This document shows positions 2,411 through 7,702 of a DNA stretch of 64,000 bases, in pieces. Every line of letters begins with the position of its first letter. The stretch's first letter is position 1. Source of the stretch: Phaeobacter sp. G2 (lineage in GTDB: Bacteria; Pseudomonadota; Alphaproteobacteria; Rhodobacterales; Rhodobacteraceae). The stretch lies in assembly GCA_025163595.1 (NCBI GenBank), contig CP104100.1:1240001-1304000 (forward strand), in the 5' to 3' direction. A model generated the notes under the pieces. It ran no database searches and was not told the origin of the DNA. It saw only the letters and a list, made by a program, of their open reading frames with translations. The position numbers and the translations under genes were made by a program.

Positions 2411-2428
2411 CAATACACTTGTGTATGG
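2411..2428. promoter_or_regulatory. Predicted TetR operator, copy 2
   Basis: Arms CAATACA and TGTATGG around CTTG, differing from copy 1 at one arm base and in the spacer. It covers an in-frame GTG at 2421, so it argues that the TetR gene starts at the ATG at 2436. Bound repressor here would cover the TetR leader. Confidence 0.7.
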
Positions 2429-2435
2429 TGGGCGG

Positions 2436-3005
2436 ATGAAACCTAAGTTGAACAAACAATCATGGTTGAAACACGGTCTCTCCGAATTGTCTCAGAATGG
2501 TTCTGAGGCACTGAAAGCTGACCGATTGGCGAAATCACTAAAGGTGACACGCGGAAGTTTTTATTGGCATTTCGATGACCTAATCGACTTTCATGAGCAG
2601 CTGCTTGCGTATTGGCAGGAAATGGTGACCCAGCAAGTCATCAACGATGTTGATTTGCTCCACGACAGCCGGTCCAAGGTTCGGGAACTTGTTCATCAAG
2701 CCTTTGCAGGGGACGTTAGGTTGGAGCGCGCCATACGGTCTTGGTCGGCTCAGAACAAAATGGCATCTGACGCAACCGAGTTCGTGGATCAAAAGCGCAT
2801 CGGCTATCTGGCCAAGCTTTTGATTGATGAGGGACTGTCATCGGCGACAGCAAAGGCCCGCGCGGCATTCATATACTGGGCGTATCTGGGTCAAGCCATG
2901 ACACCTGCATCGAGTTCAGAGTATTTGCCGCACGCCGCTTTAGACCAAATCATTGATCTGTTTCTTATGCCAAACTCCGTCGTCGCAACGACCAAGACGG
3001 TATAG
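2436..3005 (+). CDS. TetR family transcriptional regulator
   Basis: A 189-residue repressor-type protein. An N-terminal helix-turn-helix occupies roughly residues 8-50 (KADRLAKSLKVTRGSFYWHF, the usual TetR recognition region), followed by an all-helical ligand-binding/dimerisation domain without a recognisable ligand signature. I chose the ATG at 2436 over the GTG at 2421 because the latter lies inside an operator palindrome. It is divergent from the DUF3995 membrane protein, which it probably represses together with itself. The inducer is unknown. Confidence 0.88.
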   Translation: MKPKLNKQSWLKHGLSELSQNGSEALKADRLAKSLKVTRGSFYWHFDDLIDFHEQLLAYWQEMVTQQVINDVDLLHDSRSKVRELVHQAFAGDVRLERAIRSWSAQNKMASDATEFVDQKRIGYLAKLLIDEGLSSATAKARAAFIYWAYLGQAMTPASSSEYLPHAALDQIIDLFLMPNSVVATTKTV

Positions 3006-3714
3006 CATTGCTTTCAATCGCATGGCGGCCAAGATTGTTTTTCTCTCCCGACGGATATTCCCCAACATCCAAGCGGACGTTTACGCTTTCCGCAGCCTCC
3101 GACACTTTGGGCTCACAGCGGACTTGCGGCGGTGCAGCGTGTGGTTTTCACCCTGAACACTCTGTCGCCAGTCTGATCGGCACACCTGGTTGACTGCTGT
3201 CAGCCCGAAGGAGACGTTCCACTCCAGTACAGAAGGCAGGAAGTGAGTTGTCGCTGCAGACGCGAAGCCTCACTGCGAAGCGGACCTTCAATATGATCAG
3301 ATTGCCAGAGAGCAGCGAAAGTCCGAATGGAGCTGATTGTGTTGAAAAACTCGGTGTTTGGTCAACTAGGGGCATCTTGGCAGAATACTGTCCCACTGCG
3401 GAGCCATTCTGCGAATATTGTTTACCAGACGCGCATTCAGGGAACAGTTGTTCTAAGATATGGCATCGTTTTTCTCGCGAGAGAGTTTTTCAACAGAACA
3501 GGCCCAAAACTACCATTGCTTCATGGCGCATGAATGGCAGATTTCACGTGAGTATGGCCATTGGCATTCGAACGGAGCATGCTTTCGCCATCATCTGGCT
3601 CTTACGGTTTGAAGCAAAAGTGGAAGTGGCCTAGGCCACTCCGCCTCCACCACGACACCCTGCGTCAAAAATTTTATATCAACCTGCATAGGTATCAACT
3701 AAAACGCCTAATTA
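3006..3714. other. About 710 bp intergenic, probably decayed mobile DNA
   Basis: No gene with recognisable motifs was found. The longest open frame (3248-3634) has no family resemblance. The only clear structure is a pair of 13-bp inverted termini at 3340-3352 and 3483-3495, listed separately. Confidence 0.45.
3340..3495. repeat. MITE-like or IS-end remnant with 13-bp terminal inverted repeats
   Basis: TGTTGAAAAACTC at 3340-3352 is the exact reverse complement of GAGTTTTTCAACA at 3483-3495, enclosing about 130 bp with no coding capacity. The perfect 13-bp match with short spacing fits a non-autonomous miniature element or the fused ends of a deleted insertion sequence. I believe similar sequences occur at the ends of some alphaproteobacterial insertion sequences, but I could not check this. 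Confidence 0.45.
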
Positions 3715-4290
3715 ATGAAACGCTTCAACTTCCTTTACATTGTCACCACTGTGACAGCCATTGCTACTGCAGCAATGGGAGGGCATTCCCTCATTCGATC
3801 TGGGCTACCTACAGCGGACGTGCTCGCAGAATTTGATTATAACCACCCCCTGATCAGGATCGCTGATTTCGAACCCGGTGATGCAGTGATCATCAAGATG
3901 GACCAGTTCCCAGTCATAGTCTGGCGGCGAGATTTCGATGATATTACGCTAGCAAAGCAACAAGAAGACACGGCACGATGGCCCGATCCGTTTTCTGTTT
4001 TTTCCGGCAAAACAGAGCCATTCCCAGCACAGGATACCAGCCTGATGGTGAACCAGGAGTGGTTCTTCGCATGGGCCCTAAATCCGAGTGGGTTTGGTTG
4101 CGTCGTGTTGACCCGAGCGGGCGATTTTGATGGTTTCTTTGATCCCTGTCGGGGCGCTCATTTTGATCTATCTGGCCGCATCCGCAAAGGCCCGTCACGT
4201 GGTAATCTAAGGATCATTTCAGCGCAGATGACTGAGGATGGCAGATACTTTCAGCTTGACCTTACTAATCCGCCGAAAGCCAGACGTTAA
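3715..4290 (+). CDS. Rieske-like membrane protein lacking all Fe-S cluster ligands
   Basis: 191 residues. The N-terminus has one membrane anchor (about residues 6-28) followed by LPTADVLA, matching the NxSADVLA hinge of the cytochrome bc1 Rieske subunit. GDAVIIKMDQFPVIVWRRDFDDITLA then matches the Rieske base fold. In the cluster-binding fold CTHLGC is replaced by NPSGFGC (Cys129 kept) and CPCHGSHYD by DPCRGAHFD (Cys145 kept), followed by SGRIRKGPSRGNLRI. All four cluster ligands (Cys, His, Cys, His) are gone, while both disulfide cysteines remain. The Tat twin arginine is reduced to KR. It therefore cannot act as a normal electron carrier. No bc1 genes lie nearby. Its role is unknown. Confidence 0.75.
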   Translation: MKRFNFLYIVTTVTAIATAAMGGHSLIRSGLPTADVLAEFDYNHPLIRIADFEPGDAVIIKMDQFPVIVWRRDFDDITLAKQQEDTARWPDPFSVFSGKTEPFPAQDTSLMVNQEWFFAWALNPSGFGCVVLTRAGDFDGFFDPCRGAHFDLSGRIRKGPSRGNLRIISAQMTEDGRYFQLDLTNPPKARR

Positions 4291-4491
4291 ATTTCTCGCA
4301 TATCGTCGTCTTAAGATTTCTGCCTTTATCGATACGCGGAAGTTGAGCCAAGGTGCAACGAACGCACTGCTTGTCCGCTCTGCCTCCCTTGACCTCAGGC
4401 CTGAGTGCCGATCTGGTGTGCAGGCGCGGCGAACGGCGGCTTCGAGCCCAGACTCCCCAATGCTGCGGTTGTCACGAACGTCTGCTCTCGA

Positions 4492-7416: not shown

Positions 7417-7418
7417 CG

Positions 7419-7702
7419 TGCAATGGCCCAGAGTTTATCGCTCAGAAGGTGCGGGATTGGATCGCGGCGGTCGGTGCCAAGACGGCCTATATCGAGCCGG
7501 GTCACCATGGGAAAACGGGTACTGCGAAAGTTTCAACGCCCGCTTCCGGGACGAGTTGCTCAACGGTGAAACCTTCTACAGCCTAAGGGAGGCGCAAGTC
7601 CTGATCGAACAATGGCGCATCCACTACAACACGATCAGACCGCACAGCGCTCTGGGCTATCGCCCACCCGCGCCGGAAAGCATCGTACCAATAGATCAGT
7701 GA
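7419..7702 (+). pseudogene. IS3-family transposase C-terminal fragment with frameshift
   Basis: From 7419 the frame reads NGPEFIAQKVRDWIAAVGAK and TAYIEPG, then a missing base near 7501 moves the reading into the frame encoding SPWENGYCESFNARFRDELL and continuing to PHSALGYRPPAPE. This is the C-terminal half of an IS3 orfB including the catalytic Glu region. The N-terminal half is absent. The following bases to about 7750 resemble an IS3 right end. Confidence 0.8.

Follow-up and report, generated by a model that had tools for sequence, protein, structure and literature searches.

Results

A second Rieske gene that lies apart from petA-petB

The window analysed here, the whole 64-kb stretch of Phaeobacter sp. 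G2 DNA (G000:C1:1240001-1304000), contains at positions 3715..4290 of its forward strand an open reading frame (ORF) for a 191-residue protein, present as reported in a preliminary description made from the DNA letters. Its ATG at 3715 is fixed by an in-frame TAA at 3709-3711. We identified the product as a cluster-free paralogue of the cytochrome bc1 Rieske subunit on the basis of TIGR01416 (Rieske_proteo), a PDB sequence search, a family profile and the fold predicted by AlphaFold2 (AF2). The TIGR01416 match covers residues 2-175 (E 1.5e-17) with a score of 64.1 bits, below the curated cut-off of 97.4, and a Pfam scan of the protein gave no match. The PDB search returned 59 sequences at E <= 1 (best 7.9e-19), all named by their depositors as Rieske or iron-sulfur subunits or as bc1 or b6f components. 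The AF2 model has the bc1 Rieske fold, with a predicted local distance difference test score (pLDDT) of 92, and superposes on 1rie at 1.8 A over 127 residues. In homology along its length and in this fold the protein agrees with the bc1 Rieske proteins. The genome also encodes an ordinary petA (L005:1156-1716), which has the Pfam Rieske domain with the CTHLGC and CPCHGS boxes and is followed by a Cytochrome_B gene. This petA-petB locus lies at about C1:267000, and the window gene, at C1:1243715, is separate from it and does not adjoin petB.

Alignment of the two proteins indicates that CTHLGC of petA corresponds to NPSGFGC in the window protein (4081..4101, + strand) and CPCHGS to DPCRGA (4141..4158, + strand). 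Both ligands are gone from each box, with Asp in place of the Cys ligand in the second, and the Ser and Tyr beside the cluster are lost as well (S to A, Y to F). Without ligands the window protein cannot carry out Rieske electron transfer. The one cysteine left in each box, Cys129 in the first and Cys145 in the second, aligns with a disulfide cysteine of petA. The preliminary description had proposed a membrane-anchored bc1 Rieske homologue that lost its ligands and is under selection; the TIGR01416 match, the predicted fold, the petA alignment and the selection analysis below bear this out, and the two replaced boxes were read correctly.

The ligands are lost throughout a well-supported family

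A search with the single sequence gave 29 matches, 15 of them without a Pfam Rieske domain, and a search with a 20-member profile gave 350 matches at 1e-10, with at least 75 lacking Pfam Rieske among the 120 matches listed. Among these listed matches, full-length members of the family all reach 152 bits or more, whereas the best petA reaches 129; short pieces overlap petA. All 20 A2 members matched TIGR01416 at E <= 0.001 and none of 20 family members matched Pfam Rieske at E <= 0.1. A tree was built from 70 family rows (named fragments and sequences under 165 residues dropped) and 27 petA rows, taken from the matches of both searches and the genome's own petA. A branch supported at 100/100 separates the family from petA in this tree, whose root relative to petA is not placed. 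The existence of orthologues elsewhere, which had been set as a check against a decaying petA copy, was confirmed. One group of 31 rows holds the window type (DPCRGxHFDLSGR) together with a cysteine-less clade of 19, a second group of 38 rows is of the DPC..HFDLWGR type, and L046 stands apart on a long branch. Several members are publicly named 'ubiquinol-cytochrome c reductase iron-sulfur subunit', which is an annotation issue.

Conservation was counted in 84 family and 60 petA rows, fewer rows having a letter at some sites. The 84 strings are distinct, although L007 is contained in P0038 and L043 in P0031, seven are shorter than 165 residues, and related rows are not independent. A ligand residue at a ligand position was found in none of the 84 family rows, and all four ligands in 60/60 petA rows. 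The first Cys position is mostly N (52 rows; F in 13, S in 8, others), the first His position G (58, others) and the second His position Q, R or Y (37, 19 and 17, others), while the second Cys position is acidic in 83 rows (D 68, E 15, A 1). In 76 rows F stands in place of the Tyr of HYD. A replacement metal site was also considered and rejected: beyond D/E143 only H149 and D151 are conserved there, both are present in petA, and no ligand set emerges.

Both disulfide cysteines are present in 65 of the 84 rows and both absent in 19, with no row keeping a single one. This consistent joint loss shows that the pair functions as a unit wherever it occurs. The 19 rows form one clade (support 100/92), and in 11 of them the second box reads EGRY. 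The earlier claim that the protein kept its disulfide therefore holds for the window protein and the 65 rows and fails as a general statement. The same 19 rows also exclude redox sensing by the disulfide, which had been suggested as a role, as a family-wide function. In genuine Rieske proteins the disulfide is structural. The AF2 model of a cysteine-less member is poor (pLDDT 68.9, predicted template modelling score 0.59) and falls under pLDDT 50 at residues 133-147, from an alignment of only 18 sequences; as a model, this fits a structural role of the disulfide. This sister branch (L042-L044 and relatives; mostly EGRY) still has the Rieske-derived frame although the ligands and the disulfide are both gone.

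Anchor, hinge and neck, and residues new to the family

The N-terminal membrane anchor was placed from the AF2 helix (residues 6-30; 3730..3804, + strand) and the conservation table; L7, Y8, T11 and L26 are common with petA, and the W-P and Gly/Ala-rich positions of petA are lost. The table also locates the hinge motif P-T-A-D-V at residues 32-36 (3808..3822, + strand); of the 79 family rows that can be read at these positions, 91% have the P, 81% the A and 91% the D. From the hinge Pro to Gly55 the span is 24 residues in 73/79 family rows against 21 in 60/60 petA rows; the three extra hinge or neck residues are set at 41-43 (3835..3843, + strand), a placement uncertain by a few residues. Trp70 (3922..3924, + strand) is invariant in the 82 family rows with a letter, where 51/60 petA rows have Arg, and F141 is found in 84/84 family rows where all 60 petA rows have Trp. 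The C-terminal extension has a median of 8 residues in the family and 0 in the 60 petA rows. A hydrophobic tip residue, at the position where we take the Rieske tip to meet cytochrome b, is kept in 74/84 family rows.

The family thus resembles bc1 PetA (TIGR01416) in its anchor, its P-S-A-D-V hinge, its head fold and its G-D-F-x-G-F-F..H.D..G-R core, but differs from it in the missing ligands, the longer neck, the residues W70, F141 and D143, the C-terminal extension and, for the window gene, the location outside petA-petB. It also lacks in most rows the RR just before the anchor, which is present in all 60 petA rows and in only 10 of the 70 family rows that reach it. The LPTADVLA hinge, RIRKGP and the KR in place of RR had been correctly noted for the window protein, whereas the neck insertion, the changed Ser and Tyr, the wider family and its branch lacking the disulfide go beyond the preliminary description. 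The accompanying argument, that a protein with no folded cofactor would not need the Tat RR, is borne out only in part by these counts.

The gene is under loose purifying selection

A comparison of the window gene with the P. leonis copy (L006) gave 18 synonymous and 19 nonsynonymous changes, a ratio of nonsynonymous to synonymous rates (dN/dS) of 0.30, as against 0.095 for petA of the same pair. The coding sequences are 93.5% identical and the flanks 88.4% and 91.7%. These changes produce 17 amino-acid differences against 25.9 expected by random change; only 0.12% of 5000 simulations were as low, and 65% of the simulations met a stop. A Ruegeria-like genus supplied 11 further genomes, including two in which the copy is broken; here the median dN/dS is 0.22 (range 0.14-0.39; finite dS in 31/55 pairs), whereas ispG gives 0.022 (7 genomes, 21 pairs). 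With 0.30 in the window pair and values near 0.2 among other members, dN/dS is not close to 1, which had been named as a refutation, and the predicted Rieske fold likewise agrees with the preliminary description. In the same Ruegeria-like species dN of the family gene is about 12 times that of ispG (0.30 vs 0.024). Within the protein the ratio pN/pS, of nonsynonymous to synonymous differences per site, is lowest in the two ex-cluster tip loops (0.26 and 0.22) and higher in the anchor (0.40), base (0.49), neck (0.69) and C-terminus (0.68) in this genus, pS being near saturation (0.62-0.74) so that the regional contrast comes mainly from pN (0.18 and 0.16 in the tip loops vs 0.28-0.45). Selection on the gene is purifying but loose: the gene is maintained and fast-evolving, and its tip is held most.

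At synonymous sites the gene has diverged less than petA or ispG compared in the same pairs (0.147 vs 0.32 and 0.092 vs 0.427), which suggests transfer or recombination. At the ispG place (L065, L066, L069, L070, L074, L075), five genomes were compared with L066, and identity is 52-60% for the family protein and 95-98% for ispG. This divergence is unusually fast evolution at a fixed place.

Sporadic distribution

With the profile at E <= 1e-36 the gene was found in 7/394 genomes of the window's family (Rhodobacteraceae), sampled at about one per genus, and in 1/385 genomes across the window's class, which is the window's own. The figure of 7/394 is a low estimate by genus because the Ruegeria-like genus is represented among the 394 by a genome without the gene; 11 of 54 genomes of this genus carry it, a count that excludes six further matches at 1e-31, read as petA. 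Nine of these 11 copies are open and seven stand beside ispG; the copies of R. arenilitoris HKCCA4777 and R. atlantica HKCCD9103 have internal stop codons. In the window's genus 2/12 genomes carry the gene, its own included (single-sequence search), one same-species genome, 93% complete, is without it, and another congener has a broken cysteine-less relic (L054 4687-4839). In the genus of G193 the gene is present in 1/2 genomes.

Discussion

What a Rieske protein without a cluster may do

In all, these data describe a family of second, cluster-free bc1 Rieske copies in some marine roseobacters, which is maintained by selection and whose function is probably binding or regulation, not electron transport. 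We found no description of such a family in open-licence PMC text. A partial precedent is the Acidocella iron-sulfur protein (ISP), in which three or four cluster ligands are reportedly missing and the two disulfide cysteines retained, as part of a bc1 complex itself deranged at cytochrome b (PMC10715153). By that description the likeness is in the lost ligands and kept cysteines, whereas the window gene is a second copy in addition to a petA with all its ligands. NirD-type and other Rieske-like domains can also have the Rieske-like fold without a cluster, but they are soluble, belong to another branch of the fold and are without the bc1 anchor or hinge.

Our tentative proposal, which falls somewhat short of an even chance, is that the protein is a cluster-free Rieske mimic acting on cytochrome bc1, one that retains the anchor, the hinge and the fold of the head but not the [2Fe-2S] site. 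It presumably carries no metal, and in the periplasm its tip would serve to bind a partner, most likely that of its parent, cytochrome bc1. There it may take the position of the Rieske subunit, or sit in the Qo docking crater of cytochrome b, and serve as a brake, a placeholder or an assembly or stability factor. The three extra neck residues could hold the head at the Qo side, where a cluster-free head, if assembled, would block Qo. Work on R. capsulatus has shown that extra Ala residues inserted at Ala-46, in the neck of the ISP, keep the head at Qo for milliseconds with one Ala and seconds with two, and that the 2Ala form does not support photosynthetic growth (PMC4583038). A specific and rather improbable version of our proposal is that this long-necked Rieske replaces the working subunit, parks at Qo as the 2Ala form does and shuts half of the dimer; such a brake would give bacteria an off-switch, whether tunable or protective, for the oxidation of quinol. 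Rieske proteins are defined by their cluster, and a cluster-less clade with its tip most constrained implies that the fold has some other task; should this task lie with bc1, the protein would be a regulator acting at the Qo site, and we know of no protein regulator described as acting there.

Several observations weigh against a role on bc1. In the anchor, which should pack on cytochrome b, only 4/12 petA-conserved columns are kept, and in the tip, counting columns kept in half the family and including the four ligand columns, only 2/9 in loop 1 and 3/8 in loop 2. At the seven loci outside the ispG place no neighbour is common to more than two and there is no genetic link to petBC. No obvious ribosome-binding site was seen before the ATG at 3715, and the sporadic presence and broken copies show that the gene is dispensable. 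Because so much petA-specific conservation of anchor and tip is gone, a new partner is nearly as likely as bc1. The head may have been given a new binding function in the periplasm, independent of bc1, for which W70, F141, D/E143 and the C-terminal extension would form a new surface, a possibility to which we give about one chance in three; the near-invariance of these three residues, the extension itself, the loss of most petA interface residues and the lack of a petBC link favour it, but the hinge motif and the hydrophobic tip are kept and are not obviously needed by a free binding domain.

The remaining explanations appear much less probable. An accessory conflict or exchange gene (immunity, exclusion, or a toxin or phage decoy), kept for a time and then lost, would agree with the sporadic presence in 7/394, 2/12 and 11/54 genomes, with the high dN and low synonymous distance and with the repeats beside the window gene; we consider it unlikely, as the window protein has no PADLOC match and the gene keeps one place by ispG in 7/11 Ruegeria-like genomes. 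Equally doubtful is a decaying petA duplicate without function, for which the stop codons, the congener's relic and a constraint weaker than that on petA speak, against the shortage of amino-acid differences and the frequent stops in the simulations, the nine open Ruegeria-like copies and the invariant residues across a deep clade. Least credible, and very improbable, is sensing of the periplasmic redox state by the C129-C145 disulfide: no row has only one of the two cysteines, but 19 rows have neither, and both the structural nature of the genuine Rieske disulfide and the weak cysteine-less model at 133-147 point the other way.

Genomic surroundings

A conserved operon was sought among the ORFs of 12 loci and rejected, neighbours common to three or more being found only in the Ruegeria-type loci L007-L010 and in L042 (G151). 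These neighbours are ispG (Pfam GcpE), an M20 peptidase, a class A penicillin-binding protein and a class I/II aminotransferase, which we take for hemA. In L042 the family gene occupies the same slot by ispG in opposite orientation. A likeness between the MocR-type gene of the window and an ORF of L042 (24% over 169 residues) was discarded as meaningless. A plasmid search at 1e-15, in which records of the window's own genome may be left out, gave no match, and PADLOC, run on the window protein, gave none either.

Repeats lie around both the window gene and its P. leonis relative, and the wider setting differs between the two. One repeat, with no strand assigned, is downstream of the window gene (4372..4449), and similar copies flank the gene on both sides at the P. 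leonis locus. Intergenic repeats around the gene in the two species are at 3109-3519 and 4372-4449 in the window and at 2042-2448, 3158-3235 and 4094-4171 in L006. Further along the window, 7418-7702 encodes a C-terminal piece of an integrase (Pfam rve_3), and a 78% similar stretch is found about 0.8 kb from the L054 relic. Upstream, at 1880-2455 on the reverse strand, a DUF3995 membrane protein is encoded beside a TetR regulator (2421-3005).
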